Shown piece by piece: positions 24,805-45,520 of a stretch of 64,000 bases of DNA. The position numbers and the translations under genes were made by a program. Source of the DNA: Chloroflexota bacterium (GTDB lineage: Bacteria; Chloroflexota; Anaerolineae; JAAEKA01); contig JAYELL010000001.1 in NCBI GenBank assembly GCA_034717495.1, forward strand, positions 130,649-194,648, given 5' to 3'. Position 1 is the stretch's first letter. Every line of letters starts with the position of its first letter. The notes under the pieces are model-generated. The model had not been told where the DNA came from. It saw only the letters and a list, made by a program, of their open reading frames with translations, and searched no databases.

Positions 24805-26370
24805 ATGGCGGTAGCTGAACCCACCCTTTCTCCAGAAGCCAAACCCGAATCCGGATCGCGGGAATGGAACCAGCCAATTGAGGTTCCATTCCTCTCCGTA
24901 GTTGTCACCCTCGTTCTGGCGGTTGCCATTCTTGGTGCGCTCGTTTGGGGATACTTTTCCACCGCTGCACCGGTTACCATCTCGATCGATGGTCTGACCG
25001 CGCGCGTTAACAGCCATCAGAGCACGGTGGGCGATCTCCTGGGCGAATTGCAGGTTACGCTGACACCGGAGGATCGAATCACGACCCCCCTGGGAAAGGG
25101 GCTCCTACCGGGATTGGTGATAGAGATCGTGCGGGCCAGGCCTGTGGTTGTACAGGGCGACAGCCGGGAACGCCATCTACGAACCCACCTGACTACGGTG
25201 GGCGGCGTCTTGAACGAGGCAGGTATCACCACGGGCCCCCACGATGAACTGACGCTGGCCGGACAACCTGCCAATGTCGATACGCTGTTACCCCTGCCCG
25301 AGTTGCTGGGTGGGCGCCAGTTCTCCGGGATTCCCGAGCCCTTGCCCTGGCAGGGCACAGAGCTTTCCGCGGTCGAAATTGCAATCGTGCGCGCCGTGCC
25401 GTTGGTGCTTCACGATGAAGGTCCCTCGGTCACCCTCTGGACGACGGCATCGACCATTGGGGAAGCGTTGACGGAACATGGCCTGCAGTTTTTCATCGGC
25501 GATCGAGTTCGGCCGGGGCTGGGGACACCCGCGAGCGCCGGTGCTCAGATATTCCTGGATCGTTCCAAGCCTGTCAGCGTCCGTTCCGGGGATGGAATCT
25601 GGCGTACCAGGACCCGGGCGGCAACGGTCTCTGATCTCCTGACCGAGAATGGACTGGTATTGGCTGGGTTGGATCGGGTAGAACCATCGCTGGAGACTGT
25701 CGTGACCGATGATCTGGAGGTCACCATCACCCAGGTTGAACATCGCTTTGACGTGGAGGAAGAAGTCACGCCATATTCGACGATCTGGCAGGCTGATCCT
25801 GAGCTGGAAATCGACCAGCGCCGCATGGAAAACGAGGGGGTTCGGGGTATCCAGCGCTGGCGTTACCGGACTGTCCTGGAGGATGATGAGCCTGTCGATC
25901 GTTTTCTTGAGGACCATTGGCTGGCCCAACAGCCAATTACCCGCGTGCTCAAGTACGGCACAGATATCATCCCTCGGGAACTGGAGACCACGGAAGGCAC
26001 TCTAACCTATTGGCGCAAGGTACGCATGTTTGCTACCTCCTATTCCGCGGATGAAGCGGGAACCCCGGTGGACGCGCCCTATTATGGTCTCACCCGGTCA
26101 GGAACCCCGGTTGGCTACGGGGTGGCGGCCGTGGATCCAAGCGTGGTGAAACTTGGCAGCAAGGTTTATGTGCCCGGGTACGGGGTTGCCGATGCCCTCG
26201 ACACAGGCAGCGCTATCAAGGGCCGGTGGATCGATCTGGCCTACGAAGAGGGTCAGTTGGTGCCCTGGAGCCGTTGTGTCGACGTGTATCTGTTGACGCC
26301 GGAGCCACCCTCCTATCAGATCGAGTATTTTTTGCCCGACCGGCCCAGGGTGCGTTGTTTGCAGCAGTAA
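24805..26370 (+). CDS. Membrane-anchored DUF348/G5/3D-domain cell-wall protein
   Basis: 521 residues. One membrane helix (about 28-51) anchors an extracellular chain with three DUF348 repeats (each with a T-V-G-D/E-L-L/L-T motif, starting near 57, 112 and 205), then a G5 domain (about 305-385, EEEVTPYSTIWQADPEL onward). A C-terminal 3D domain follows (about 390-490), with YGLTRSGTPVGYGVAAVDP, LGSKVYVPGYG and ALDTGSAIKGRWIDL. This resembles YabE and resuscitation-promoting-factor-type proteins of Gram-positive bacteria. The 3D domain is double-psi beta-barrel-like and includes lytic-transglycosylase relatives. A role in peptidoglycan turnover is likely. It stands 25 bases after the redoxin gene. 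Confidence 0.85.
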   Translation: MAVAEPTLSPEAKPESGSREWNQPIEVPFLSVVVTLVLAVAILGALVWGYFSTAAPVTISIDGLTARVNSHQSTVGDLLGELQVTLTPEDRITTPLGKGLLPGLVIEIVRARPVVVQGDSRERHLRTHLTTVGGVLNEAGITTGPHDELTLAGQPANVDTLLPLPELLGGRQFSGIPEPLPWQGTELSAVEIAIVRAVPLVLHDEGPSVTLWTTASTIGEALTEHGLQFFIGDRVRPGLGTPASAGAQIFLDRSKPVSVRSGDGIWRTRTRAATVSDLLTENGLVLAGLDRVEPSLETVVTDDLEVTITQVEHRFDVEEEVTPYSTIWQADPELEIDQRRMENEGVRGIQRWRYRTVLEDDEPVDRFLEDHWLAQQPITRVLKYGTDIIPRELETTEGTLTYWRKVRMFATSYSADEAGTPVDAPYYGLTRSGTPVGYGVAAVDPSVVKLGSKVYVPGYGVADALDTGSAIKGRWIDLAYEEGQLVPWSRCVDVYLLTPEPPSYQIEYFLPDRPRVRCLQQ

Positions 26371-26470: not shown

Positions 26471-29400
26471 ATGTCGCAAGCCGAAAAGCCGAAGAAGCGC
26501 ACGAGCGGTTGGTGGGTCGGTGCGTACCTTGTACTGATTCTACTGACCGCATTTTTTTTGCGCGTCTTTCACATTGATTGGGCAGATGGTCACCTTCCTC
26601 ATCCGGACGAACGCTCGACCGTCGCTTTTTACGCGCCTTCAATTCACCTGCCACCTGACGGCATTAGCCTGCTTGACACGCGCCAGTCTCCCCTGAATCC
26701 TCTGTGGGATGTCAATAAACAGAGCCGGCGCAGCTATACCTACGGGCACTTTCCCCTTTACCTGGTAGTTCTTGCTGCTAACGGTCTTCACGAACTGGCA
26801 CCACTGGCCGAAGGGCTGGGATTGCCAGGTGAGCTGGTCGAGACCTTGCGAACAGCCAATGGCGTGCCTGGATTTGCCCTGGTCGGCCGCCTGATCACAG
26901 CTATTGCCGATACCTTCACCGTGTTGTTGGTCTTTTTACTGGCTCAGCATATCTACGGGCGGCGGCGCTGGTGGGTGGGATTGCTGGCGGCGGGTTTTTC
27001 TGCCTTTACCGTGCTTCAGATCCAGCTCAGTCACTTCTTCGCCGTCGATCCCATCAGTACTGCGTTTACCCTGCTGGCGCTCTACGGCGCGCTTCGCCTC
27101 GTGGAATTGGCCCAGCGCGGTCGCGTCTCGTGGATATGGGCGGTCATAACTGGTATCGGCGCGGGTCTGGCCATCGCATCAAAGTTCAGTGCTTTGCCGG
27201 TATTGGCTGCACCTGTAGTAGCAGGCTTGATGATGCTGTGGCGGGGGCGTGGCTTCGAAGCAACAGATCTGGCCGGCGAACGACCTTCGTCTTCCCAGAT
27301 TGCCCTTTTGGTAATCCTTGCCTTGCTCGTCGCTGTAGCGACCTTCGCTGTGACTTCCCCCTTTGTATTGCTCGATTGGGAAAACTTCAATCGGGCGGTG
27401 CTTATCGAGCAGGGCGCTATGGTACGCGGCGAGGCGGATTTCCCCTTTACTCGCCAGTATCGAGGCAGCGTGCCGTACCTCTATTTCCTGGAACAGCAGG
27501 TCAAGTGGGGAATCGGCTGGCCCCTGGGACTGCTTTGCATGGTTGCCCTGATGTGGGTGTTGGTCAAAGTGCTGCGTGGCCGTTCCCTGGCGGGCGAGCT
27601 GATCATCCTGAGTTGGGTCATACCCTATTTTGGCATGACCGGCCTCTTCCTGGCCAAGTTCAATCGCTACATGGTGCCCATTGTGCCCTTGCTCATGGTG
27701 TTCGCCGCGGGCCTGGTTGCTGCCATCGCAGGTGAGGTGCCTCGCAGGGCAAATTCGCCTGAACCCAGCGTCGTCGCTGAAGATGACGCGATTGTCCGGC
27801 AGTCGTCAAGCCGGCGATGGATGGCTGCTATTGTCGGTGGAGCTGCACTCCTGGGAGCTGTTCTCTGGTCCGTTGCTTTTGTCAATGGCGTCTACGGGCA
27901 GGAACATCCCTTCATCCGGGCCTCTCGTTGGATGTACGATACCATTCCTGACAACAGTGTCTGGATTACGGAACATTGGGAGGAGGGCTTACCCCTCTCG
28001 CTGCCCGAAGACGACGGCAATCCAGGCGCTCATGGCTGGCGTAATCTGACTATGCCCATGTACGAGGAGGATACGGAGCGAAAGTTCGAGACACTGAGGG
28101 ATAACCTGCGCGAAGGAGATACCTACGTGCTGGCAACCAAGCGTCTATACGGCGCTCTGCCGAACTTGCCCGAGCGTTATCCCATGAGCAATCGGTTTTA
28201 CGAGTTGCTCTTTGCCGGCCAGCTGGGATATGAGTTGGCAGCCGAATTCACCAGCTTTCCAGGTCTGTTCGGTGTGGAGATCGACGATCAAAGTGCCGAT
28301 GAAAGCTTTTGGGTTTACGATCATCCCCGAACTCTCATCTTTCGCAAGGTCAGGGATCTGAGCGACGCCGAGTGGAATGCGTTGCTGGGCAACAGCTGGG
28401 CCGGCGCCAGGGCATGGCACGTAGGTGAGCCCACCTTGATTCAGCGCATATGGTCGGTGTTCGATGGCCAGGGAGTCAGCCGGCAACCACAGGAACTCGA
28501 GGAAAGTCCTGATCTCCTTCTGGATCAACCGCTGGACGAACTTCCGGTAGTTCAGGATTTCCGTTGGAATACTGCGGCCAGCAGGTCGGTGCCCCTGGCG
28601 GTGATCAGCTGGTGGCTCGCTCTTTTTTTCATCGGCTTGCTGGTATGGCCCTTTGCCTTCTCACTTTTCAGGAATCTGCGGGATCGTGGTTATCTGTTCT
28701 CCCGATCCTTGGGCTGGCTCACGGTCGGATATGGCGTGTGGCTTGCAGCCAGTCTGCGAATAGGCCAGAATTCGCTCGCTTTTATCCTGGTGGTAGCGCT
28801 GGGAGTTGCTGCAGTATCCTTCTGGTTTGCCTGGCGAAATCGAGAGGAGATGGCGGCCTTCTGGCGTTCGCGAAAGGGTATCCTGATTTTCGGTGAGGCG
28901 CTGTTCGGAGTCGCCTATCTACTGTTTGTTGTCGTTCGGCTCCTGAATCCCGACCTGTGGCAACCCTGGAATGGCGGCGAGAAGTTCATGGAGTTCGCTT
29001 TCCTGAACGCAATCCTGCGCAGTGCCAATTTCCCCCCGATTGATCCCTATTTCGCCGGCGGCACAATCAACTATTACTACTACGGCCATTACCTGGTGGC
29101 CCTGTTGGCCAAGCTCACGGGAATCTGGTCGTCGGTGGCCTTTAACCTGGCCGTTCCGACCCTGTTTGCCCTGACGATTGTCAACGTGGTCAGCCTGGGC
29201 TACACGCTGGCCGGAAGGCTGTCATGGAGGGGAACCGCCGAGCCTGTTGAACAGGATTCGACTGTGACGAAGGAGCAAGGAATTCCGTCGCCAGGGTCGG
29301 GCCGCCGGCTCGATAGCTTTTCCGGGCAGCCAGTCTCGTACGGGATTGGGTCTGGACTGTTGGCAGCTTTCTTCGTCGCGCTTCTTGGCAATGTCGATGG

Positions 29401-31189
29401 TGGTGGTCAGATGGTGCGCAACCTGGCGCTGGCTGCGGGCACCGGGTTCGAGAGTCGATTACCCGGTGTGCAGACGGCCGTTGGCGCCGTCGATGGACTG
29501 GTGCAGGTCGCCAACGGCACCGCTCGTGTGCGGGGTTACTGGTATTGGGATCCCAGCCGGGTGATTCCCTATACCATTAACGAGTTTCCCTATTGGAGTT
29601 TTCTATTTGCCGATCTTCACCCCCACATGATCGGCATCCCCTTTACCGTGCTTTTCCTTGCCATGGCCTACAGCATGTTAGTTGAGACCTCGCCAAAGGT
29701 CCTGACCATGGGAGCTACAGGACGGCAATGGTTGACATATGGCATTCGTTCGCTCACCGGCGACGGGCTTTTTCCGGCAATGGCGCTGGTTCTGGGTGCC
29801 CTGGCCGTTCTGAATACCTGGGACCTGCCGACCTACTTTGGTCTGGCTGTCCTGGTTTGGTTGGTGCGGGAGTGGCGCAGCGGCCGTCTCTATCGATCTC
29901 CCGGCAGGTCGCTGCTACGAACGGTGCTATTTGCCATCCTGTTGTTGGTACTGGCAATTGGGCTCTATCTACCCTTTTTCCTGAATTATAAGGCCATCGC
30001 GGCCAGTGGTGTGGGAATCGTTACCACGCCGACCGAACTGGGATTGTGGCTCAATATATGGGGCTTCCTCGGGTTTTTGCTTGTTACCTACATTCTTGTG
30101 GAACTTCGACGAAAACCTGGTGTTGGCCGCGCTCGCGAGCTGCCGATTCTCCGTTGGCTTGGCATCTCCCTCGACAGCCTCCCGGGGGTGCCCCGTCTCA
30201 CAAAATTGACGCCTCGCCTGAGTACCAGCATATATCTCATACTTGCCCTGATTGTAGCTTTGGCGGTGTTGCTCTGGAGCGTCGATTGGCGGGTGCCTGC
30301 AGTACTGCTGTTACCGTTGTTTGGTGTTTCCCTCTTGCTTTTGCGCCGCCAGGTTAGCGCCGCCCGGGTCTTTTTGTCAGTACTGGTCTTCACGGCCCTG
30401 CTGGTTCTGTTCGGGGTCGAGATATTCTACTTGAAGGACCATCTTCAGGGTGGCGATTACCGGCGGATGAATACGCTTTTCAAGTTCTATATCCAGGTTT
30501 GGGTCATGCTCGGGCTGGCCCTTGGGGTAGCACTTCCCGGGATATGGCGCTTTATACACGAGCGCTGGCGCCTGGGCTGGCGAATCCTGTGGACAATCGT
30601 TTTTTTCTACCTGCTGCTTCTGTCACTGGTTTTCCTCTTTCTGGGCACTTCGTCGCGCGTCAACGACCGATTTCCGCAGCAGAATGGCGTGCCGTCCATT
30701 GGTACGCTGGATGGCATGGCCTACATGCAATCGGGAACGTACACCTGGCATCCCGATCCTGGCCAGGCGCCCAATTCGGTCATCGAGCTGGGATATGACT
30801 ACCAGGCCCTGCGTTGGATGTTGGAAAACCTGGAGGGTACGCCCCTGGTTGCCGAGGCGCCCATTGGCTATTATCGAGAAGGAGGCCTGCGCGTCTCCAG
30901 TTTCACCGGTTTTCCCACCTTCCTGGGCTTTCATCAGGAGGGGGAACAGCGCTACGGCACTCAAACCGGTGCCCGCCGCTCCCTGGCAGAGGAATTCTGG
31001 CGTACGACCGATCTGGCGCGGGCAAGACAACTTATCGATGAATTGAAGGTTGATTACATCTATGTTGGCCAGCTCGAAGAGATTGTTGTACCACCGGAGG
31101 GGCTGGCCAAGTTCGGGCAGCTTGCCGAACAAGGCGACCTGGAGGTGGTGTTCCAGAACGATAAGGTAACCATCTTTCGGGTGGTGTAA
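26471..31189 (+). CDS. Giant membrane protein: GT-C (PMT-like) domain fused to DUF2298 (Chlor_Arch_YYY)
   Basis: About 1572 residues with more than 20 predicted membrane helices. The N-terminal third (about 1-430) is a GT-C-type glycosyltransferase: an acidic HPDER motif (D46-E47) in the first loop, RSYTYGHFPLYL and repeated hydrophobic spans. A hydrophilic segment (about 440-690) follows. The C-terminal half is a complete DUF2298/TIGR03662 domain: NGGEKFMEFAFLNAILRS, GTINYYYYGHYLVALLAKL, INEFPYWSFLFADLHPHM, RRMNTLFKFYIQVW and the end VDYIYVGQLE. The same domain stands alone in the next-but-two gene. I used the ATG at 26471; TTG at 26465 is possible, and neither has a good ribosome site. It probably transfers or processes lipid-linked sugars; no activity is proven. 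Confidence 0.85.
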   Translation: MSQAEKPKKRTSGWWVGAYLVLILLTAFFLRVFHIDWADGHLPHPDERSTVAFYAPSIHLPPDGISLLDTRQSPLNPLWDVNKQSRRSYTYGHFPLYLVVLAANGLHELAPLAEGLGLPGELVETLRTANGVPGFALVGRLITAIADTFTVLLVFLLAQHIYGRRRWWVGLLAAGFSAFTVLQIQLSHFFAVDPISTAFTLLALYGALRLVELAQRGRVSWIWAVITGIGAGLAIASKFSALPVLAAPVVAGLMMLWRGRGFEATDLAGERPSSSQIALLVILALLVAVATFAVTSPFVLLDWENFNRAVLIEQGAMVRGEADFPFTRQYRGSVPYLYFLEQQVKWGIGWPLGLLCMVALMWVLVKVLRGRSLAGELIILSWVIPYFGMTGLFLAKFNRYMVPIVPLLMVFAAGLVAAIAGEVPRRANSPEPSVVAEDDAIVRQSSSRRWMAAIVGGAALLGAVLWSVAFVNGVYGQEHPFIRASRWMYDTIPDNSVWITEHWEEGLPLSLPEDDGNPGAHGWRNLTMPMYEEDTERKFETLRDNLREGDTYVLATKRLYGALPNLPERYPMSNRFYELLFAGQLGYELAAEFTSFPGLFGVEIDDQSADESFWVYDHPRTLIFRKVRDLSDAEWNALLGNSWAGARAWHVGEPTLIQRIWSVFDGQGVSRQPQELEESPDLLLDQPLDELPVVQDFRWNTAASRSVPLAVISWWLALFFIGLLVWPFAFSLFRNLRDRGYLFSRSLGWLTVGYGVWLAASLRIGQNSLAFILVVALGVAAVSFWFAWRNREEMAAFWRSRKGILIFGEALFGVAYLLFVVVRLLNPDLWQPWNGGEKFMEFAFLNAILRSANFPPIDPYFAGGTINYYYYGHYLVALLAKLTGIWSSVAFNLAVPTLFALTIVNVVSLGYTLAGRLSWRGTAEPVEQDSTVTKEQGIPSPGSGRRLDSFSGQPVSYGIGSGLLAAFFVALLGNVDGGGQMVRNLALAAGTGFESRLPGVQTAVGAVDGLVQVANGTARVRGYWYWDPSRVIPYTINEFPYWSFLFADLHPHMIGIPFTVLFLAMAYSMLVETSPKVLTMGATGRQWLTYGIRSLTGDGLFPAMALVLGALAVLNTWDLPTYFGLAVLVWLVREWRSGRLYRSPGRSLLRTVLFAILLLVLAIGLYLPFFLNYKAIAASGVGIVTTPTELGLWLNIWGFLGFLLVTYILVELRRKPGVGRARELPILRWLGISLDSLPGVPRLTKLTPRLSTSIYLILALIVALAVLLWSVDWRVPAVLLLPLFGVSLLLLRRQVSAARVFLSVLVFTALLVLFGVEIFYLKDHLQGGDYRRMNTLFKFYIQVWVMLGLALGVALPGIWRFIHERWRLGWRILWTIVFFYLLLLSLVFLFLGTSSRVNDRFPQQNGVPSIGTLDGMAYMQSGTYTWHPDPGQAPNSVIELGYDYQALRWMLENLEGTPLVAEAPIGYYREGGLRVSSFTGFPTFLGFHQEGEQRYGTQTGARRSLAEEFWRTTDLARARQLIDELKVDYIYVGQLEEIVVPPEGLAKFGQLAEQGDLEVVFQNDKVTIFRVV

Positions 31190-31249
31190 TGACAGCAATC
31201 CACGTGCATCATTACCAACGAAGGTGGAAGTGTAGCGAGGAGAGCAGGA

Positions 31250-31747
31250 CTGATTGACGCCCACCAGTTTGCTGCCCGTTATCGGGAGTATCTGCCGCGG
31301 GTCCTGAATTTCATCAGGCTGCGCGTGCCTGACGACTCCCTGGCGCAGGATTTAACGGCGACCACCTTCGAACAGGCGTTTCGCAAGATTGATCAACTGC
31401 GCAACCCGGAAGCCTTCGGTGGGTGGGTGTTCCGAATCGCCCGAAATGAAGTTGGCCAATACTACCGGAGGCGGCGGGATCAGGTCAGCCTGGATGCGTT
31501 GCTCGAGCTTCCGGCGCGCGGCGAGACACCCCATCAAACAGCTGCCCGTCGAGAGGATCTATCGGAGGTATTGGCGGCGATCGACACCCTGTCTCTGCGG
31601 GAGCAGGAGATCGTTGCCCTGAAATTCGCTGGTGGTCTCTCAAATCGGGAAATTGCCCAGGCGATGGACTTGAGCGACAGCAACGTCGGCGTGATCCTGT
31701 TTCGCTCGATTCGCAAGGTCCGGGACCGGCTGGGCATTGAAGGTTGA
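31250..31747 (+). CDS. ECF-type RNA polymerase sigma factor, apparently with a non-canonical start
   Basis: About 165 residues. Region 2 reads FAARYREYLPRVLNFIRLRV through TTFEQAFRKIDQLRN and GWVFRIARNEVGQYYRRRR. Region 4 reads LREQEIVALKFAGGLSNREI with the helix-turn-helix and SDSNVGVILFRSIRKVRDRL. The first standard start codon in frame, GTG at 31325, would remove the first 25 residues of region 2. Region 2 homology extends back to about 31268. GAGGAG at 31237-31242 is spaced 7 bases from CTG 31250 and 10 from ATT 31253, so I place the start at CTG. It ends just before the DUF4367-like gene, a typical sigma/partner pair. Confidence 0.85.
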   Translation: MIDAHQFAARYREYLPRVLNFIRLRVPDDSLAQDLTATTFEQAFRKIDQLRNPEAFGGWVFRIARNEVGQYYRRRRDQVSLDALLELPARGETPHQTAARREDLSEVLAAIDTLSLREQEIVALKFAGGLSNREIAQAMDLSDSNVGVILFRSIRKVRDRLGIEG

Positions 31748-31757
31748 GGAATTGCAG

Positions 31758-32618
31758 GTGGATGAGAAAGAACTTGCAGGGCAATTGAGCGACTTCCTGG
31801 ATGACTCACCAGATTGGCCGCTGCCGGTCGGCCTGGATGCCGGCACGGTAGAGACTGCCGCCCGATTGGCAGCGCTGCCGACCTTGCTTCCCGACGCTGA
31901 CCCAGTGTTCGGGCAGCGTGTCTGGGCCCGTCTGCAGGCCATCGAAACGCAGGCAGAGTCGTCTCAGCGTAAACTGGCGTGGTCATGGCCCGGTGGCTTC
32001 AACCTGCGATGGTTGGCACCGGTTGCAGCATTATTGCTTGTGATCGTTCTGGTGCTGCCCGGCCCGCGTCAGGCTCTGGGTAACTGGATGGCGCGTTTCT
32101 CCCTGGGCAGTGTCGACGTTGCTGTGGCTCCCGAGGAGACAGTTCGTCCAGCACTTGCCGCCACGGAGATGGCTTTCGATACATTGGCCGCAGCAGAGGA
32201 GAGGAGTGGCTTTGAGCTGCGGGCGCCCTCTTTCCTGCCCCATGGTTACCGCCTGACAGGTGTGGACATGGTGACATACGGTGCATTGCCGTTATCGTTG
32301 CAGCCGTTGTATGTTGAAAGCAGGTACGAGCCTGACTATCCTGCTGGTGATGTCGGTTTTTACGCTGTGTTGAGGCAGTTCAACGGGCGGCTCCCGTCGG
32401 GCGACTCGCCGTCGAGAATTGAATTCCAATCGCAGGATGTGCATTCAGTCAACGAGATTGTGATTGGCGAGGGGTTGCCCGCCGTAATGTTGGAAGTTGG
32501 GCCGCCGTCGCAGGTTCTCAGGCAGCTTGTTTGGCAACACGATGGTGTGACATTGGAGCTATGGAGTCAGGTGCTGACGCAAGAGGAGATGCTTCGCATA
32601 GCCGAATCGCTGCAATAG
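31758..32618 (+). CDS. Membrane-anchored DUF4367-like protein, probable sigma-factor partner
   Basis: About 286 residues from the GTG at 31758 (GAGGA 7 bases upstream). An N-terminal cytoplasmic part of about 80 residues precedes one membrane helix (about 85-102, LAPVAALLLVIVLVLPG). An extracytoplasmic DUF4367-like domain follows, with PSFLPHGYRLTGVDMV, and ends MLRIAESLQ, as in proteins that pair with ECF sigma factors. The cytoplasmic segment (DPVFGQRVWARLQAIE) would be the anti-sigma part, although the HXXXCXXC zinc motif is absent. Position directly after the sigma gene supports an anti-sigma or sensor role, but this is inferred. Confidence 0.72.
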   Translation: MDEKELAGQLSDFLDDSPDWPLPVGLDAGTVETAARLAALPTLLPDADPVFGQRVWARLQAIETQAESSQRKLAWSWPGGFNLRWLAPVAALLLVIVLVLPGPRQALGNWMARFSLGSVDVAVAPEETVRPALAATEMAFDTLAAAEERSGFELRAPSFLPHGYRLTGVDMVTYGALPLSLQPLYVESRYEPDYPAGDVGFYAVLRQFNGRLPSGDSPSRIEFQSQDVHSVNEIVIGEGLPAVMLEVGPPSQVLRQLVWQHDGVTLELWSQVLTQEEMLRIAESLQ

Positions 32619-32619
32619 T

Positions 32620-35265
32620 ATGGTTGATGTAATTCGCTTCTGGCTCGCCATTCAATTCATTGCCGTGGCAGCGCTGCCATTCGCCTGGCGTATCCTGGGG
32701 GTGCTTCCAAGCCGGGGCTACTTTCTCGCCAAACCCATCGGGCTTCTGGCCGTTACCTGGGTCCTGTGGATGGGCGCCAGTTTAGGATTCCTTCGCAACA
32801 ACCTGGGCGGCATTTTTTTCAGTTGGGCTGTTGTTGCTGCCCTTTCATTGGTTGTGGGGCGCAGCGGTTTTGCGCGGGCCGCCAATGGCAGCCGGCCGTT
32901 TTTCGTGTGGCTGCGTGGCCATCTGAGCTTGCTGCTGGTAGGCGAGATTCTCTTTCTGGCCGGCATGATGATTTGGGCGTGGGTACGAAGCTATAGCCCC
33001 GATATTGCGACGGCAGGCGGCGAGAAGTTTATGGAGATCACCTTCCTGAACGGCATCCTGCGCAGCCAGCAGTTCCCGCCCCAGGATCCCTGGCTATCGG
33101 GGTATGGTATCAGCTATTATTACTTCGGCTACGTGATGCTGGCCTTGTTGACCCGACTCTCCGGTCTCGCTCCAGGCGTTGCATTCAACGTTGGTTTGGG
33201 AACATGGTTTGGGTTAACCCTTGTCACAGCCTTTTCTGTGGCTTATGACATGGTGGCAGTATTATTCCGGTCTCCATTCGATGAGACCGGCAGTGGATCG
33301 TCGTCTGTGTCGCCCGCAGCTGTGGGAGGCGGTTTGCTGGGCGCGCTTTTCGTTGCCGTGCTGAGTAACCTGGAGGGGTTCCTGGAGTCCATGCAGGGGA
33401 TGAGCATTGGTTCTCTTGCCTTTTGGCGATGGTTGGATGTCAAAGATCTAAACTGCATGCGGGGACCTAATTTTGTGGAGGCACTGTCCAATTGCCCGAC
33501 GGCAACCGGTATCGCTCCGGAGCGCTTTTTCTGGTGGTGGCGGGCCAGCCGGGTGATCAACGACCGCGACCTGCTTGGGAACTCGGTCGAGGTTATCGAC
33601 GAGTTTCCTTTCTTCAGCTTTCTGTTGGGAGATATGCATCCCCATGTCCTTGGTTTGCCCTTTGTCCTGCTGGCGATCGGACTGGCACTGGCAATTGTGA
33701 TGTTGGGCGCCCCGAGGATTCCATCTGGCGGAAAAGAGTCCAACGGTATTCCACCCTCTTTTTTTCATCGTATCATGGGCCTGTTTCCTGGTGGTAGCAT
33801 CGGCTTCTTGCTCTATGCCTTGACTTTGGGTGGTCTGGCGTTTCTCAACACCTGGGATTTTCCCATCTATCTTTTTCTGACCATGTTGGCAGTCGCGGCC
33901 GTGTTGGCCTGGCAGTCGGGGGGCGCGACCGGGCGCGCTGTGGTTGACACCTTGTTGGTTGGTCTGGGATTGGCGATTACCGGTGTGCTGCTCTATCTGC
34001 CCTTCTATTTTGGGTTTCAATCTCAGGCAGGGGGCATTCTGCCCAACTTTATTTTTCCGACCCGGCTGTCCCAATTCCTGGTGATGTTTGCTCCTTTGCT
34101 TTTTGCCGCGATTTTGCTGCTGCTGGCGTTAAGCGGGAATGGCCGCAAAACCTTCAGAGATTTCCTGCATTTTCTGCCCTGGACCTTTCTGGCACCCATT
34201 CTTTTCCTGTTGACCATGCTGGCTGTGGGTCTTTGGACCGATGCCGGACAGGATTTCGTGCAGCGCCTGATGCAGCTTCCTGTTGTTCGGGAGCAGGTGG
34301 GCGAGGCATCGCTGCTCCAGCTGCTGCAGGGTGTGGTCGCCATACGAATTGGCTCACCCTGGACCTACCTGGTGCTGGCGGTGTTGCTGGCCTGGGTGCT
34401 TGGCCTGTTATGGAGCCGTCTCAGGATCACTGTCGGCTACGAAACCGATATTGACATTACTGAAAGTGCGGAGCAGGCCACCGTTGAGCCGGGACATTCC
34501 ATCCTGATGACGGGAAGCTCCGATACCCTGGCTGTAACAACCTTCGCTCTGCTGGCGTTGGTGACTGCTTTCCTCCTGGTGTTCGGCGTCGAATTCGTCT
34601 ACTTGCGTGATCTCTTTTCTACTCGAATGAACACCGTATTTAAGTTCTACTTTCAGGCCTGGATACTGATGGCGGTGGTCGCTGCTTTTGCCGTGATTTA
34701 TGTGGCTCGGTATGGCAGGCCGTTGCTGCGTTACGGTGGCCTCGGGTTGCTGGCGTTGCTGGTAGTCGCAGGACTTTTTTATCCGGTCTTTGGCACGTAT
34801 ACGCGTGCTGGAAAGTTTGCCGGCGAACCCACTCTGGACGGCCTGAAGTATATCGAACGAAACAACCCAGGCGATGTGGCAGCAGCTCAATGGCTGCGGG
34901 ACAACGTGCCCGGACAGGCCAACATTCTCGAAGCCACAGGTGGATCTTACACCTATTCCGGGCGCATGGCCGCCATGACCGGGTTGCCCACCTTGCTCGG
35001 GTGGGACTTCCATGAATTCCAATGGCGTGGCACCAGGGACGAGCAGAATCTCCGGCGACCAGATATCGACCGTATCTATCGCGATGCGGCCAATGCCGAG
35101 CTTGAGGCCCTGATCGATCAATGGAACATCGATTTCGTCATCGTCGGAGAGTTGGAGCGCAGCACTTATCAGGTGACCCCTCAGTCGGAAGCCCGGTTGG
35201 CGGCTCTGCTCGATCTGGTCTACGATCTGGATGGTGTGCGTATCTACAGGCGGCGAGGATCGTGA
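32620..35265 (+). CDS. DUF2298 (Chlor_Arch_YYY, TIGR03662) multi-spanning membrane protein
   Basis: 881 residues with many membrane helices. It shares the full set of DUF2298 landmarks with the C-terminal half of the giant protein at 26471: TAGGEKFMEITFLNGILRS, QDPWLSGYGISYYYFGYVML, IDEFPFFSFLLGDMHPHVLG, TRMNTVFKFYFQAW and IDFVIVGELE. The reiterated acidic, His and aromatic loop motifs suggest an active site facing the outside, as in GT-C enzymes. The ATG lies one base after the previous stop, so it is co-translated. Biochemical function is unknown; TIGR03662 and TIGR03663 genes are known to co-occur in genomes. Confidence 0.88.
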   Translation: MVDVIRFWLAIQFIAVAALPFAWRILGVLPSRGYFLAKPIGLLAVTWVLWMGASLGFLRNNLGGIFFSWAVVAALSLVVGRSGFARAANGSRPFFVWLRGHLSLLLVGEILFLAGMMIWAWVRSYSPDIATAGGEKFMEITFLNGILRSQQFPPQDPWLSGYGISYYYFGYVMLALLTRLSGLAPGVAFNVGLGTWFGLTLVTAFSVAYDMVAVLFRSPFDETGSGSSSVSPAAVGGGLLGALFVAVLSNLEGFLESMQGMSIGSLAFWRWLDVKDLNCMRGPNFVEALSNCPTATGIAPERFFWWWRASRVINDRDLLGNSVEVIDEFPFFSFLLGDMHPHVLGLPFVLLAIGLALAIVMLGAPRIPSGGKESNGIPPSFFHRIMGLFPGGSIGFLLYALTLGGLAFLNTWDFPIYLFLTMLAVAAVLAWQSGGATGRAVVDTLLVGLGLAITGVLLYLPFYFGFQSQAGGILPNFIFPTRLSQFLVMFAPLLFAAILLLLALSGNGRKTFRDFLHFLPWTFLAPILFLLTMLAVGLWTDAGQDFVQRLMQLPVVREQVGEASLLQLLQGVVAIRIGSPWTYLVLAVLLAWVLGLLWSRLRITVGYETDIDITESAEQATVEPGHSILMTGSSDTLAVTTFALLALVTAFLLVFGVEFVYLRDLFSTRMNTVFKFYFQAWILMAVVAAFAVIYVARYGRPLLRYGGLGLLALLVVAGLFYPVFGTYTRAGKFAGEPTLDGLKYIERNNPGDVAAAQWLRDNVPGQANILEATGGSYTYSGRMAAMTGLPTLLGWDFHEFQWRGTRDEQNLRRPDIDRIYRDAANAELEALIDQWNIDFVIVGELERSTYQVTPQSEARLAALLDLVYDLDGVRIYRRRGS

Positions 35266-35266
35266 T

Positions 35267-37027
35267 ATGGCAGTGAGCGACTCCCTGGCTTCTGACCCGC
35301 GAGGTATGGACCAACCATCCATTCGCATGGGGTCCTGGTTCACAATAGAAAAGGCTGCTTACGCGGCGATCGCGTTATTAGCCCTGGTGGTCCGTTTCGC
35401 TGGACTCGGCCAGCGGCCAATGGGCCTTGAGGAGGCTGTCCAGGCCGCGGCGGCTCTCGATCTGGTCCAGGGCAGCCAACTCGATCCAGTCACCGCTATC
35501 AGCCCACTGCTGTTGAACCTGCAATACCTTGGCTTCGGTATCATGGAAGCCTCTGAGGGCCTGGCCAGATTCTGGCCGGCCTTGGTGGGGACCCTGCTCG
35601 TGCTGCTTCCCTATGGCCTGCGCCGCGAACTGGGCCGTACCGGTGCGCTTGTTTCATCCCTGCTGTTGGCGTTCTCCTCTTCCCTGGTCTTTTGGAGCCG
35701 GAGCGGTACGGGAGTTAGTGTTGCTCTTTTTGCTGCAATGGCCCTGATCGTCGGCCTGGCAGGATGGCGGCGGGATCGGGCACGCCACTGGATGGTGTGG
35801 AATGCAGCGGCTCTGGCATTGATGCTTCTCTCCGCGCCCGTTGGCTACGCAGCCCTGTTCTTGATCCTTCCCTACGCCCTCCTTGCTCTTGGCCGTTCTG
35901 ACGGGCGAAAGCCTGGAGACTCTCTCTTTGGTCCAGGGCTCTCCACGGCCGTTTTGGTCGGGGTTTTAATCCTTTTCCTGGGGGCGACCGGGCTCTTTTT
36001 CAATCCCGCTGGTCTGGGTATCCTGGCTGACCTGCCGGTTGGGTTTTTGCAGGGATTTGTGGAGCCGGGCGGGTATCATCCGCTCTGGTTGCTGGTTCAG
36101 TGGATCAAGATGGAGCCGCTGGTCGTGCTGCTTGGATTGGCCGGGCTTGTTTTCGGTCTTCGTAAGCGCAATTGGATTGCCGTTGGGCTTGGTCTTTGGC
36201 TGGCGTTGGGCCTGATGTTGGTGTTGGTTCGTCCCGGTCGGGGACCGGCCGACCTGGCGCTGCTGTCGCTGGTTCTGGCTTTGCTGGGCGGCCCGGCCGT
36301 TGCTGCCTTTTTCCGTTCGCTGAATGTCGAGGACTTGACCGTGGAGGCCGGGGTGGGATTAGCGGCCGGTATCGCCATCCTGGGGTCACTGGCCATCTGG
36401 GTGGCAGAATTTTCCTCTGTGGGCGGACCGTCGCTTCAGGCAAATCCCTACCTGCTGAGCGCTATCGCTGCCGTTGGCATGCTGGCAGCCCTCCTGATGG
36501 CCTATCTGGTACTTTACGGCCAGGAGGTTGCGAAGAAGCTGGGCATTTCACTGGTACTGTTCGCCTTGATGTTGCTGAGCCTGCGAGGTACCTTCGAGAT
36601 GAACCATAGCCAGCCGGGTGCCCGCTGGGGCTCCTATGAGCACACAGTTGGTACGACAGACGGTCGCAACCTGACCGAGTATTTATTTCGTTTGGCGTCG
36701 CAGCGCGGCGGCGACCTGCGCGATCTTCCCGTGGGCCTCGTGGTTATGCCTGGCAATGAAGCGCCGGCGTTGCTCCGGTGGCATGTGCGGACCGCAGATG
36801 TCCAGGAAACAACGGGCGTTACCGGACGGAATGGTGAAGTGCTTGTCAGCCTGGACGACCAGGCAATGATGACAGGGCAATCCCTGGCGGGCAGAAGCTA
36901 TCGGGTTTCACAAACCTGGCGACTGGATGGGATAGACGATCAGGGATTCTGGAAGTGGTTGCTTTTCGGTCAGTCTGGGCCGATTCAGGACGAGCAGCGC
37001 GGGATTGTCTGGATCCCGGGCAAATAA
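35267..37027 (+). CDS. PMT-like GT-C family membrane protein
   Basis: About 586 residues. A cytoplasmic N-terminus of about 28 residues is followed by 12 or more membrane helices over about 30-450. A C-terminal soluble domain (about 460-586) is predicted outside. The first extracytoplasmic loop reads GLGQRPMGLEEAVQAAAAL, where GT-C glycosyltransferases usually have an Asp-Glu pair; here it is E55-E56. The ATG starts one base after the upstream stop, which implies co-translation with the DUF2298 gene. It could be a glycosyltransferase with an altered motif or an accessory subunit. Assignment to PMT_2-like proteins rests on topology and position. Confidence 0.72.
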   Translation: MAVSDSLASDPRGMDQPSIRMGSWFTIEKAAYAAIALLALVVRFAGLGQRPMGLEEAVQAAAALDLVQGSQLDPVTAISPLLLNLQYLGFGIMEASEGLARFWPALVGTLLVLLPYGLRRELGRTGALVSSLLLAFSSSLVFWSRSGTGVSVALFAAMALIVGLAGWRRDRARHWMVWNAAALALMLLSAPVGYAALFLILPYALLALGRSDGRKPGDSLFGPGLSTAVLVGVLILFLGATGLFFNPAGLGILADLPVGFLQGFVEPGGYHPLWLLVQWIKMEPLVVLLGLAGLVFGLRKRNWIAVGLGLWLALGLMLVLVRPGRGPADLALLSLVLALLGGPAVAAFFRSLNVEDLTVEAGVGLAAGIAILGSLAIWVAEFSSVGGPSLQANPYLLSAIAAVGMLAALLMAYLVLYGQEVAKKLGISLVLFALMLLSLRGTFEMNHSQPGARWGSYEHTVGTTDGRNLTEYLFRLASQRGGDLRDLPVGLVVMPGNEAPALLRWHVRTADVQETTGVTGRNGEVLVSLDDQAMMTGQSLAGRSYRVSQTWRLDGIDDQGFWKWLLFGQSGPIQDEQRGIVWIPGK

Positions 37028-37061
37028 ATCAGAGAGATATGTATAGTCATTTAATATCATT

Positions 37062-40000
37062 ATGAATGAATACCCTCAAGAAATTCCAATTGAAGAGATT
37101 CAGACCGAAGAGCCCCAGATCGCGGCAGCAGCCGATGAAACACTTTCTACTTCCTGGCTCGATCGTTCGGCAGCATCTATATTGGCCTGGGATTGGGAAA
37201 AGATAGCCTGGGCAGGTCTGCTGATCGTGGCGGTAGTTGTCCGCCTTGTCGCGTTGGACAACCGCAGCATGAGCCACGACGAAAGCGAACACGCCTGGTT
37301 TTCCTATAATCTTTATGCAGGCAAAGGCTACGAACACAGTCCCGTCTATCACGGGCCCTTTGCCTATCACGTGTTGGCGTTGTTTTATCTCATGTTTGGC
37401 GACAGTACCATAATAGCAAGGGTGCCGACGGCCCTGTTTGGCGTCGGTGTTGTCGGGCTCATCTGGCTGTTGCGATCCTGGCTTGGCAAGAGCGGCGCCT
37501 GGCTGGCTGCGCTGTTCGTCACCTTTTCGCCGGCCCTTCTTCACTACTCTCGTCACATCCGGCACGACATCTTCGAGATTTTCTGGGCGCTGCTTTTTAT
37601 TATCGCGGTCTTTCGTTACATCGCTGCACCGGCCGGCGAGCACCGTTCCAGCAAGTGGCTTTACATCACTTCGGCGTCACTGGTGTTGATGCTGGCGACC
37701 AAGGAAGTGGCGTTTATCTACGGAGCCGTCGTAGGTGTTTTTGTGCTCGCCATCATTCTCTACCAGTGGCAGGGATGGCGTCTTGAGCCAGACATACCAG
37801 AGGAGGACCGGCAGGTACCCCTGCGGGTCTCGCGCGGGGACTGGCTCGTTCTGGCGTCGGCCGTCGTCGTGGCTTCTCTCGGTGCCCTCATCTTCCGGCT
37901 CTTCAATTTGGCCGACACGGTGGGAACGACGAGCAGTAACATCCTGGCGGTATTCGTGGTCGTGCTTCCAGCCCTGGCGGCTGTTGCTCTGGCGGCCTGG
38001 CACGTTCGGGGCCGAAGTCGCTCGGATACCGCGGTACAACCCTGGTTCAGCCCCGCCACTGACATCGCGATTCTGTTGGGCACGCTAATTCTTCCCTGGC
38101 TGGCACCCTTTGTCATCGACGCGCTGGGATACGATCCGCTGAACTATAACTTCCCGGGCGGAATTTTGCCTACGCTGTCAGTGCTGATCGGTATGATCGG
38201 CATGGCGATTGCTATTGGTATTCTCTGGGACTCTCGCCGCTGGCTGATTGCAGCCGGAATCTTCACTGGCCTGTTTGCCCTCTTATTCACGACCTTCTTC
38301 ACCAATGGCAAGGGCCTTGCCACCGGCGTGGTTGGTTCCCTGGGCTACTGGCTTTCCCAGCAGGAGGTGGCCCGCGGAAGCCAACCCTGGTACTATTATT
38401 TCATCGTCACGCCCCTGTACGAGTTCCTGCCCTTACTACTCAGTATCCCGGTTATTCTTGGCGCGTTTTTCCGCCGCAGCCGCGTTTCTGTGATTCTACT
38501 GATGCTGGTGATCCTCTCGATTGCACTGTGGCTTGCTGTGATCACAATGGCCGGGGACGATCCGGGCGGCCTGGGATTGGTGGGTACGATAGCTGGTGCG
38601 CTGGCGCTTGGCAGTGTCCTTCTCGCCGCCATTTGGGGTGGGCTGAGCAGATTCCCACAGAGCGATCGTTACTTCCTGGCCTTTCTGCCTTTCTGGGTTC
38701 TCTTCACCTGGGTGGGCTACACCGTCGCCGGCGAAAAAATGCCCTGGCTGACAACACATATCGCATTGCCCATGTGTATTGCTGGCGGCTGGTGGTTGGG
38801 CCAGGTCGTTGAACGGGTCGACTGGAGGGCTTTCTGGCAGCGGGGTGGTATCTGGTTAGCGATCCTGGTCATACCCTTGGTGGCGGCTGTAGCCTCGTTG
38901 TTGGGCACTGAGCCCTTCCGCAACCGGACCATAACCGGCCTTAGCGACACGACCCAGTGGTTGGCAGCGGCGATCGTAATCGGCGTGATTCTCTACCTGA
39001 TGTCCAAACAGATTAATCGCCTCGGTTGGAGCCAGGCCCGCAAGATTATCGGATTGACGATCGTGTTCATTCTGGGACTCTGGACGATTCGCACTACCTA
39101 TATGCTGAACTTCATCAACCAGGATTACGTCAGCGAGTACCTGTTCTACGCTCACGCTTCGCCCGATCCCCGCCAGGACATGGCGGATATCGAGCGACTC
39201 AGCCAGCGGATGGCCGGGGATCAACAGCTCAAGGTGGCGTACGACGACGATTCCGGGTGGCCTTTCAACTGGTATCTGCGCGATTGGCCCAATGCAACCT
39301 ATTTCGGCGCCAATCCCAGTCGGGACAACATGCTCGATGCACCGGTTGTGCTGGTAGGCAACAAGAACCTGGACAAAGCGCGTCCCTATCTGCGCCGAGA
39401 CTATCAGGAATTCAGCCGCCGGCTCATCTGGTGGCCTGACGAGGGCTACAAGGGCACCAGCTTGCAGAAGATATGGCAGGGTATCAAGGATCCGGAGAAA
39501 CGCCAGGCCTTTCTGGATGTGGTGATCTGGCGAAAGTATCCGAATCCTATGGCTCAATGGCCGCTGGTGCATCGCTATAGCCTTTTCGTGCAGAAGGACG
39601 CCGCCGCTCAGATGTGGGACTTTGGCGCTCAGCCCCAGGTTTTGGCAGCGATCACCGATCCCTACGAAGAAGGCTTCCGCGAGATCGCCAGTGCCCAGAT
39701 GATCGGTTCCGGACCGGGATCTGAACCGGGCCGGTTGCAGAATCCTCGCAATGTCGCCGTTTCGGCCGATGGCGAGATATTTGTGGCCGACAGTGGCAAC
39801 CATCGCATTCAGGTTTTTTCCTCCGAAGGTTTCCTTCAACGGCAGTGGGGAAGCCAGTGTGAACTGTACGCCGAAGGGCAGCCCGGCTGTATCGATCCAG
39901 ACGGCAATGAGCCGCTGCAATTGGGTGATGGTCAGTTCATGGAGCCATGGGGCATCGCCATCGGACCCGACGGCAATGTTTACGTTGCCGACACGTGGAA

Positions 40001-40682
40001 TCATCGCATTCAGGTCTTCGACACCCTGGGCAATTTTGTGACCAAGTGGGGCAACTTCGATACCACCGGCGGTGAGGCATTCGAAAAACCGGGCGCTTTC
40101 TGGGGCCCGAGAGCGATCGCCATCGATGGTGCCGGCAATCTGTTTGTGACCGATACCGGCAATAAACGCATCCTGGTGTTCGGTTCCAGCGGTGAATTCC
40201 TGGGCCAGTATGGTGGTGGTGGTGCTATCGAGGGACGGTTTGAGGAGCCTGTCGGTCTTGACATCTTCTCCCCAGGCGAGGGTCAGGCTGGCGGCGAACT
40301 GTTTGTAGCCGACACCTGGAATCGGCGCATTCAGAAGTTCAATGTGAGTTTCCAGGATGAGCTGTCCGGTTCTGGCGCGCCGCCCCAACCGATCTTCGTT
40401 TTTGAGAGGGAATGGCCGGTTGAAGGGTGGCTCGATCAGGGGATCGCCAACAAGCCCTACCTGGCCGTTGATTCCGAGGGCACCGTCTACGCTACCGACC
40501 CTGAGACCTGGCGGGTGCTGGTCTTCGACTCGGACGGAAACTTTGTCGCGACCTTCGGCAACTTCGGCACCGACGCACTCAGCTTCAAACAGCCCATCGG
40601 TATCGCTACCGATATGGATGATCGGGTCTTCGTGGCCGATGCCGAGAACCATCGTATCATGGCTTTCCCGCCGATCAGGTGA
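37062..40682 (+). CDS. TIGR03663/Agl23-like membrane glycosyltransferase with C-terminal NHL propeller
   Basis: 1206 residues. The membrane part (about 45-690) has the TIGR03663 opening: NRSMSHDESEHAWFSYNLYA with the GT-C Asp-Glu pair D73-E74, then EHSPVYHGPFAYHVLALFYL and YSRHIRHDIFEIFWALLFI. A soluble region follows. From about 890 to the end there are at least five NHL-type blades, each with a variant of ADSGNHRIQVF, ADTWNHRIQVFD, TDTGNKRILVF, ADTWNRRIQKF or ADAENHRIMAF. TIGR03663 proteins occur almost only in genomes with TIGR03662; some annotations call them flippase-associated. The propeller is an unusual extension that could bind a glycan or protein outside the membrane. It begins 34 bases after the PMT-like gene. 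Confidence 0.87.
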   Translation: MNEYPQEIPIEEIQTEEPQIAAAADETLSTSWLDRSAASILAWDWEKIAWAGLLIVAVVVRLVALDNRSMSHDESEHAWFSYNLYAGKGYEHSPVYHGPFAYHVLALFYLMFGDSTIIARVPTALFGVGVVGLIWLLRSWLGKSGAWLAALFVTFSPALLHYSRHIRHDIFEIFWALLFIIAVFRYIAAPAGEHRSSKWLYITSASLVLMLATKEVAFIYGAVVGVFVLAIILYQWQGWRLEPDIPEEDRQVPLRVSRGDWLVLASAVVVASLGALIFRLFNLADTVGTTSSNILAVFVVVLPALAAVALAAWHVRGRSRSDTAVQPWFSPATDIAILLGTLILPWLAPFVIDALGYDPLNYNFPGGILPTLSVLIGMIGMAIAIGILWDSRRWLIAAGIFTGLFALLFTTFFTNGKGLATGVVGSLGYWLSQQEVARGSQPWYYYFIVTPLYEFLPLLLSIPVILGAFFRRSRVSVILLMLVILSIALWLAVITMAGDDPGGLGLVGTIAGALALGSVLLAAIWGGLSRFPQSDRYFLAFLPFWVLFTWVGYTVAGEKMPWLTTHIALPMCIAGGWWLGQVVERVDWRAFWQRGGIWLAILVIPLVAAVASLLGTEPFRNRTITGLSDTTQWLAAAIVIGVILYLMSKQINRLGWSQARKIIGLTIVFILGLWTIRTTYMLNFINQDYVSEYLFYAHASPDPRQDMADIERLSQRMAGDQQLKVAYDDDSGWPFNWYLRDWPNATYFGANPSRDNMLDAPVVLVGNKNLDKARPYLRRDYQEFSRRLIWWPDEGYKGTSLQKIWQGIKDPEKRQAFLDVVIWRKYPNPMAQWPLVHRYSLFVQKDAAAQMWDFGAQPQVLAAITDPYEEGFREIASAQMIGSGPGSEPGRLQNPRNVAVSADGEIFVADSGNHRIQVFSSEGFLQRQWGSQCELYAEGQPGCIDPDGNEPLQLGDGQFMEPWGIAIGPDGNVYVADTWNHRIQVFDTLGNFVTKWGNFDTTGGEAFEKPGAFWGPRAIAIDGAGNLFVTDTGNKRILVFGSSGEFLGQYGGGGAIEGRFEEPVGLDIFSPGEGQAGGELFVADTWNRRIQKFNVSFQDELSGSGAPPQPIFVFEREWPVEGWLDQGIANKPYLAVDSEGTVYATDPETWRVLVFDSDGNFVATFGNFGTDALSFKQPIGIATDMDDRVFVADAENHRIMAFPPIR

Positions 40683-44118: not shown

Positions 44119-44733
44119 TCAATTGACGGCGATTCGAACGTCTTCGAAGCCGCGTGAGCGCAGGTAGTTTTCAAAGCTAAGCTGCCCGTAGCGAGCAGCC
44201 CATTCCAGCAGTCCCGCCTCCACCGCCGCCTGTCTGATGGCATCCTCGGCAGACTCGAGTGCCTCTTCCTGGAATGTCGGGTCGGCGTTGAGAAAGGGTG
44301 ATTTGTGGTGAAAAACGATATGGGACCGTTCCGAATCGACCTGGGCATCCAGAAGGACCGGGGCAGGCAAATGCAACTGCACCCGGTTGCCGTCGAACCA
44401 GAAGTCAGACGCCTCCAGGTCGGCCGGGTCGAATCCTGCCTTGACATCGCCATACACCAGCAGTATGAGTTCTTCCCGAGCGCCCAACTGGCCCCAGATG
44501 TCGTCGGGAAATCGGTCACTGCGCACCTCGGCCACGGTCTGCTGGGAAACCATAGCCTGGTCGGCGACCTTCCTAAGCTCTTGAAGACTTACTGAAGGAG
44601 TTGACGTTGACGGCTCAGAACTCGGTGGCGGCGAGGATGCCAGAGATGACACCAGACCACGTCCGAGCAATGCGAGAACGATCAGGAGGAGAAGCAGGAC
44701 CAGGAAGAAGGCGTTTTGTCGCACCCAGTGCAT
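44119..44733 (-). CDS. DUF4230-domain membrane protein (second of a tandem pair)
   Basis: 204 residues. An N-terminal helix (about 9-32) anchors a Ser/Pro-rich linker and an extracytoplasmic DUF4230 domain. The domain shows EELILLVYGDVKAGFDPADL, then the strand FDGNRVQLHLPAPVLLDAQV, and a helical C-terminus ending GFEDVRIAVN. The neighbouring gene at 44744 has the same fold and order. AGGTGAG precedes the ATG. The function of DUF4230 is unknown; the domain is common in small anchored bacterial proteins. It overlaps the dehalogenase-like TTG candidate by 4 bases, so the three may be co-transcribed. Confidence 0.78.
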   Translation of the reverse strand: MHWVRQNAFFLVLLLLLIVLALLGRGLVSSLASSPPPSSEPSTSTPSVSLQELRKVADQAMVSQQTVAEVRSDRFPDDIWGQLGAREELILLVYGDVKAGFDPADLEASDFWFDGNRVQLHLPAPVLLDAQVDSERSHIVFHHKSPFLNADPTFQEEALESAEDAIRQAAVEAGLLEWAARYGQLSFENYLRSRGFEDVRIAVN

Positions 44734-44743
44734 GATATCTCAC

Positions 44744-45520
44744 CTATGGGGTTTCTGTGAACTTCGACTCGACCAGGACTGTGGCGTCGGTGAAACCCAG
44801 GGCTTTCAGGAAGGAGAGCAGGACCATCTGGCCAGTCTGCTCGGCCCTCTCCAGGATCCCCTGAGCCTGCGCCCAATCCCGCAGTTGTGATTCGGCAATC
44901 TGCCTTGCTTCTCCTTCCAGGTCCACGTCTGGTTTCAGCAGGAAGCCTGTCCGGCGTTCCTGGACGTAGGTTCTGTCGTTGTCCAACCGGCTGTAAAGGA
45001 TCTGGGGAGGGGGCAGGGTAAGCTGCACCCGGTCACCTTCGACCACGATATTTCCAGGATCGATATCGGTCAGGTCGAAGCCTGCAACAACCTCGCCCCC
45101 GGCAACCAGCAGGATGGCATCGTAGCCCACCATCTGCTCCCAGGGCGTGCGAGGCTCGCTTTCCAGTGGGACCACCACTTGCACCACGTATTCCATGGTT
45201 TCAAGGCGGCCCAGCGACCTGACATCCTCCAGGATGATGCGAGGTGTCGGCGTTGGTGTGGGTGTTGCAGTTGGTGTGGCGGTGGCGGTTGGTGTCGCCG
45301 TCGGTGTTGAACTCGGTCCCGGTGTTTGGGTGGCAGGCACCGTTGCCGTTGGCGTTCTGGTCTTGATAGCCGTGGGCCAGAGTTCTGTGGGCGCCAGTGC
45401 CATTTCGTCAGTCGCTTGCCTGGCATTGCCAAACAGGGCCGACAGGATGAAAATCGCGGCACCGATGGCCACGATTGCCAACAGGATAACCTGCCACAGC
45501 TTCAATCCTTTGATTTCCAT
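44744..45520 (-). CDS. DUF4230-domain membrane protein with Pro/Thr-rich linker (first of a tandem pair)
   Basis: 258 residues. A membrane helix (about 9-29) is followed by a Thr/Pro/Ala-rich linker of about 45 residues (PTATPTATATPTATPTPTP type), then the DUF4230 domain. It shares ILLVAGGEVVAGFDLTDIDP, VEGDRVQLTLPPPQILYSRL and a C-terminus with LKALGFTDATVLVESKF with its downstream neighbour, which lies 10 bases away, so the pair arose by duplication. The linker is typical of extracellular proteins in Chloroflexota. Its DNA is a low-complexity GGTGTTGGTGT tract at about 45240-45310. The function is unknown. Confidence 0.78.
   Translation of the reverse strand: MEIKGLKLWQVILLAIVAIGAAIFILSALFGNARQATDEMALAPTELWPTAIKTRTPTATVPATQTPGPSSTPTATPTATATPTATPTPTPTPRIILEDVRSLGRLETMEYVVQVVVPLESEPRTPWEQMVGYDAILLVAGGEVVAGFDLTDIDPGNIVVEGDRVQLTLPPPQILYSRLDNDRTYVQERRTGFLLKPDVDLEGEARQIAESQLRDWAQAQGILERAEQTGQMVLLSFLKALGFTDATVLVESKFTETP

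Follow-up and report, generated by a model that had tools for sequence, protein, structure and literature searches.

The window analyzed here, a stretch of 64,000 nucleotides, comes from a 5.0-Mb, Anaerolineae-like Chloroflexota assembly. Six genes follow one another on its forward strand at 26471-40682 in the order FUS, ECF sigma factor, anti-sigma factor, YYY2, PMT3 and AGL. All six are present and tightly packed, with gaps of 1 to 34 bases among YYY2, PMT3 and AGL, and the coordinates and gaps given for this run in the original prediction are correct. By profile matches, FUS (26471..31189) combines an N-terminal GT-C domain, which is PMT-like with a PDER motif (PMT, 37 bits, aa 140-294), with a TIGR03662/DUF2298 domain (530 bits, aa 710-1571, above the curated cut-off of 300). 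YYY2 (32620..35265) is a second TIGR03662/DUF2298 membrane protein (504 bits, above the same cut-off of 300). PMT3 (35267..37027) is a PMT_2/remote TIGR03663 membrane protein in which the DE motif reads EE; it scores 70 bits against TIGR03663, below the curated cut-off of 126, and starts at 35231 or, likelier, at 35267. AGL (37062..40682) joins a TIGR03663 (Agl23-type) membrane domain (253 bits, above the cut-off of 126) to a C-terminal NHL propeller (143 bits). Between FUS and YYY2 lie the genes for the sigma factor (31250..31747) and for a single-TM anti-sigma factor with a DUF4367-like ectodomain (31758..32618). They are preceded at 31185..31210 on the same strand by a predicted sigma promoter, TGTAAT-N15-GCATC, which carries a motif shared with other loci and whose -35 box overlaps with the stop codon of FUS. 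Upstream of FUS, at 24805-26370, is a gene for a G5/3D/DUF348 wall protein, and such a gene adjoins FUS in several relatives too (e.g., L036, L039, L101, L157 and L178). Elsewhere in the window, two DUF4230 genes lie side by side on the reverse strand (44119-45520).

Conservation of the FUS-YYY2-PMT3-AGL Operon

FUS homologues were found in 98 of 100 related genomes and, at E 1e-200, a YYY2 profile has matches in 251 of the 396 genomes of the class. The order FUS-YYY2-PMT3-AGL, or whatever portion of it a contig covers, is found again in many Anaerolineae families. The gene run is thus not a product of chance and, judged by its gene content and order, FUS-YYY2-PMT3-AGL is an old, conserved, class-wide Anaerolineae operon. 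The original prediction had proposed a search for this order in other Chloroflexota and had named an order conserved in no relative as the observation that would speak against it; the order is kept in many Anaerolineae families. An assembly chimera was considered and rejected, as the identical order occurs in many independent assemblies. Two loci, L053 and L105, have two FUS-type genes in tandem, with YYY2 next. FUS is near-universal in related genomes, yet its family is hardly present in the literature that we found: TIGR03662 was named in no paper found, and DUF2298 was scarcely named, partly as a gene label.

The Sigma Factor and Anti-Sigma Factor of the Window

The sigma reading frame is open from 31193 and has no ATG, GTG or TTG start that fits the N-terminus of its relatives. 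The CTG at 31250 lines up with the ATG start of the closest homologues and has AGGAGA upstream; an ATT at 31253 is the alternative. The gene therefore probably starts at one of these two codons and extends over 31250-31747. Automatic gene callers would choose the GTG at 31325, truncating region 2. The protein contains regions 2 and 4 only, with an anti-sigma gene adjacent, as is typical of ECF sigma factors. The anti-sigma gene runs from 31737 (TTG) or 31758 (GTG) to 32618 and encodes one TM helix. Its score against DUF4367 (PF14285) is 17.9 bits, under the cut-off of 22.1, and five of five aligned members of the same anti-sigma kind match this family (best E 8e-7). The ECF sigma factor and the one-helix, DUF4367-like partner that had been proposed are thus both found. 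We also rejected the idea that the pair is a remnant; apart from the unusual start codon, both genes are intact.

Among solved structures, sigma-BldN (6dxo) is closest to the sigma factor (E 8e-24), and in the sigma-BldN/RsbN system of Streptomyces, as in the window, the gene for a membrane anti-sigma factor lies beside the sigma gene. Unlike in that system, the window sigma factor scores far under the BldN equivalog cut-off (TIGR02952, 99 bits against 206), the anti-sigma factor is not recognizably RsbN, and there are no developmental targets. A comparison of the anti-sigma sequence with PDB chains gave chance-level matches only. We built a structure model of the anti-sigma factor from four sequences; its quality is modest (pLDDT 69), its N-terminal part is of low confidence, and its ectodomain weakly resembles RseB (probability 0.97-0.99, E no better than 0.05), a match that we treat as a lead only.

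A profile of the window's anti-sigma kind has strong matches in 9 of the 396 class genomes and, in all nine, the gene lies between FUS and YYY2. In genome G023, a pair of this kind is present with FUS on a different contig, and in G034 the pair appears frame-shifted or broken. Two loci of the window's own family in which the junction is visible, L039 and L047, lack the pair. The accompanying sigma factors form a single clade (support 100/98) and are scattered on the YYY2 tree, where their distribution takes seven changes for eight rows; this figure is an upper estimate because, in some rows scored as lacking the pair, the contig stops short of the junction. The scatter is consistent with an old element that was often lost or with exchange at the site. 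Accordingly, the description of this pair as dedicated holds in that it is tied to the operon at one and the same junction in nine of nine cases, but not in the sense of a fixed part, as most relatives lack it.

Recurrent Insertion of ECF Pairs into the Operon

We used an ECF profile to scan 164 distinct loci of the operon; this sample is phylogenetically clustered, includes L084-L086 because of their anti-sigma matches, and contains 73 loci in which all three junctions are visible. ECF genes were found at all three junctions, i.e., FUS|YYY2, YYY2|PMT3 and PMT3|AGL, and 26 of the 73 fully visible loci have one inside the operon. Nearly every one is followed downstream by a one-helix protein of anti-sigma design. 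The anti-sigma kinds differ, being zinc-finger, DUF4367-like, or short without a motif, and the sigma factors form several separate clades with different anti-sigma types. Altogether, the sequences show that unrelated ECF/anti-sigma pairs have been built repeatedly into one operon across lineages. While ECF-controlled envelope operons are known, it is surprising that unrelated sigma cassettes have been exchanged repeatedly, and their occurrence at three junctions offers an unusual natural experiment on how ECF circuits attach to targets.

PF04542 matches number 13 in the 5.0-Mb genome of the window, from which ∼0.33 ECF genes would be expected in all 127 kb of operon spacer; we found ∼32. The Poisson tail is ∼3e-9 when just eight independent events are counted, a figure that ignores shared ancestry and the tolerance of the junctions for inserts. 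In ∼982 kb of flanking DNA, no ECF gene was detected at E<1e-15, with the contig-end cases L084 and L242 set aside. At this threshold, the profile recovered 8 of the 12 other PF04542 places in the window's own genome; of the four missed, two are RpoD-like and two had E values of 2e-14 and 2e-10.

The FUS|YYY2 junction also holds inserts of other kinds, judged from their sequences to be NUDIX-like, DUF952-like, MFS and further ORFs. A small DUF952-like ORF lies there in many Anaerolineales (L154, L156, L160, L167-L170 and L176), and a NUDIX-like ORF in the Caldilineaceae-like loci L151, L157 and L175. Because unrelated ORFs have been inserted as well, this junction is permissive, and the main rival explanation is therefore that the sigma pairs, as selfish or neutral passengers, sit in a permissive spacer and control mainly themselves or unrelated genes. 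The absence of the pair from the two genomes of the window's family and the many label changes on the YYY2 tree also fit this explanation; moreover, most operons lack a pair, so the pair is dispensable for operon function. By contrast, the excess of ECF genes in the operon over expectation, with flanks devoid of them, and the arrangement of the pairs, which lie on the operon strand and are tightly packed at three junctions, argue against mere passengers, as does the promoter motif described below, which points into the core genes and has no other intergenic strict copy in the window's genome. On balance, we consider passenger status unlikely.

A Predicted Internal Promoter Element

The pattern GTAAT-N15/16-GC[AG]TC is present upstream of the sigma gene in all nine loci with the window's kind of pair, and their spacers are dissimilar except for those of L035 and L043. 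It lies 29-54 bases before the inferred sigma start in eight of the nine loci and 134 bases before it in L086. In a shuffle test on eight loci, with the near-duplicate removed, the best common 5+4-mer pair occurred in six of the eight dissimilar spacers as compared to ≤3 in 200 dinucleotide shuffles. Among 117 junctions without a sigma factor of this kind, the pattern was found in one, deep in a 4-kb insert. The strict motif occurs twice in the window's 5.0-Mb assembly, at 31185-31210 and inside a helicase-like ORF, so that there is no second intergenic copy. In a second sigma kind, the box is GTGTATA, present in six of six upstream regions (≤3 in 300 shuffles), and further kinds have conserved boxes of their own upstream, as judged by eye.

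A test for a shared sigma-type promoter motif upstream of 26471 had been suggested. We looked for the motif there and it is absent; the element is instead internal, at 31185-31210. The predicted target is therefore sigma, anti-sigma, YYY2, PMT3 and AGL, but not FUS. The element upstream of the sigma gene itself in all nine loci predicts autoregulation, a feature of ECF sigma factors. This reading is mechanistically ordinary, since many ECF sigma factors are autoregulated together with their anti-sigma factor (PMC8103513, review).

That we are dealing merely with the known TIGR03662/TIGR03663 family pair next to a chance sigma neighbor is very unlikely. NCBIfam indeed already lists the two families (TIGR03662/PF10060 (DUF2298) and TIGR03663) and the name Agl23 for the latter, and FUS, YYY2 and AGL belong to them by score. 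However, the site and motif of the window's kind of pair are conserved, unrelated ECF pairs recur far in excess of chance, and the density of ECF genes in the operon relative to expectation already disfavors this explanation. We found no described regulatory switch for these families; here, their genes lie together with PMT3 in a single operon that has an ECF pair inside.

Predicted Fold and Chemistry of the Membrane Proteins

A structure model of YYY2, built from 55 sequences (pLDDT 90), was compared with the PDB using Foldseek. The only significant matches were DPY19 and AglB (probability 1.00, E 2e-5 to 4e-5), with TM-scores of just 0.30-0.42, and the weaker matches include the C-terminal AglB domain. 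By this structure comparison, YYY2 has a GT-C fold. Five residues of YYY2, E135, D156, D338, H340 and H342, are invariant and, by analogy with Glu71, the base of DPY19 (PMC10154233), are compatible with a predicted outer-face active site. The C-mannosyltransferase DPY19 and the archaeal oligosaccharyltransferase AglB/STT3 share with YYY2 the GT-C fold and an acidic residue that is conserved in an early outer loop. YYY2 differs from both in the low TM-scores, and its sequence matched no PDB chain.

AGL belongs to TIGR03663, which is named after Agl23 of Haloarcula hispanica. Haloarcula Agl23 has been reported to suppress the rft1 defect of yeast and, in liposomes, to flip lipid-linked oligosaccharide, and the purified protein to flip M5GN2-PP-Dol (PMC11182771). 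While Agl23, with its reported flipping activity, is archaeal, AGL is bacterial and known here from its sequence. To our knowledge, Haloarcula Agl23 has no NHL propeller attached, whereas AGL has one. The statement in the original prediction that the chemistry of these families is undefined thus no longer applies in full, given the reported flipping by Agl23 and the GT-C fold of YYY2; for the operon, we infer the role in glycosylation or lipid-linked-sugar metabolism that had been proposed. The archaellum of the Chloroflexota bacterium Litorilinea aerophila bears likely O-glycans (PMC12488501), and a protein is therefore plausible as the sugar acceptor.

The score of AGL, the activity reported for Agl23 and the weakly RseB-like ectodomain model would also fit a scheme in which the four proteins are mainly Agl23-type flippases or scramblases rather than glycosyltransferases, and in which the sigma pair answers stalled lipid-linked intermediates. 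We regard this scheme as improbable: YYY2 matches transferases and retains all five invariant residues, and four large GT-C proteins are hardly needed for a single flippase.

A Proposed Model for Envelope-Responsive Control of the Operon

The explanation that we favor, and think probably correct, is that the window contains a class-wide GT-C/Agl23 operon in which this lineage's ECF pair drives an internal promoter in response to an envelope signal. The operon, the switch and the internal promoter element are solid as features of the sequence. The four polytopic GT-C/Agl23-type proteins would act on polyprenyl-linked sugars on the outer side of the cytoplasmic membrane, by transfer and perhaps flipping. 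The one-helix anti-sigma factor would keep the sigma factor at the membrane until an extracytoplasmic signal acting on the DUF4367-like ectodomain frees it. The freed sigma factor would then start transcription at 31185-31210 and raise the output of sigma, anti-sigma, YYY2, PMT3 and AGL, while FUS would remain on an upstream promoter. In other lineages, different ECF pairs have been built in. It is likely that the switch drives YYY2, PMT3 and AGL; promoter use, signal release and the sugar chemistry are what we infer. More speculatively, operon throughput may be fed back via exchangeable ECF/anti-sigma cassettes, with the weakly RseB-like ectodomain reading a lipid-linked intermediate or product and lineages swapping the sensor to match their envelope; we consider this extension doubtful.

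In operons of the sigV-rsiV-oatA type in Bacillus subtilis, an ECF sigma factor, its anti-sigma factor and an envelope-modifying target are likewise encoded in one autoregulated unit. There, the sigma gene leads the operon, whereas in the Anaerolineae operon it lies inside and is exchanged between lineages. A literature search for an ECF/glycosyltransferase operon found nothing.

With their precisely placed predicted promoter, few predicted targets and predicted extracytoplasmic input, the pairs offer a way to approach the function of the operon via its regulation, and cell-surface sugar work under the control of an envelope signal is directly testable in Anaerolineae that carry embedded switches. 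We used the strict motif to look for a larger regulon in the nine genomes and obtained few sites, mostly within ORFs. One further promoter-like occurrence of the motif (TGTAATATTCGGGCC...GCATC), at G053:C54:8879-8904 (L261), lies upstream of a 124-aa uncharacterized ORF, which is a candidate further target.
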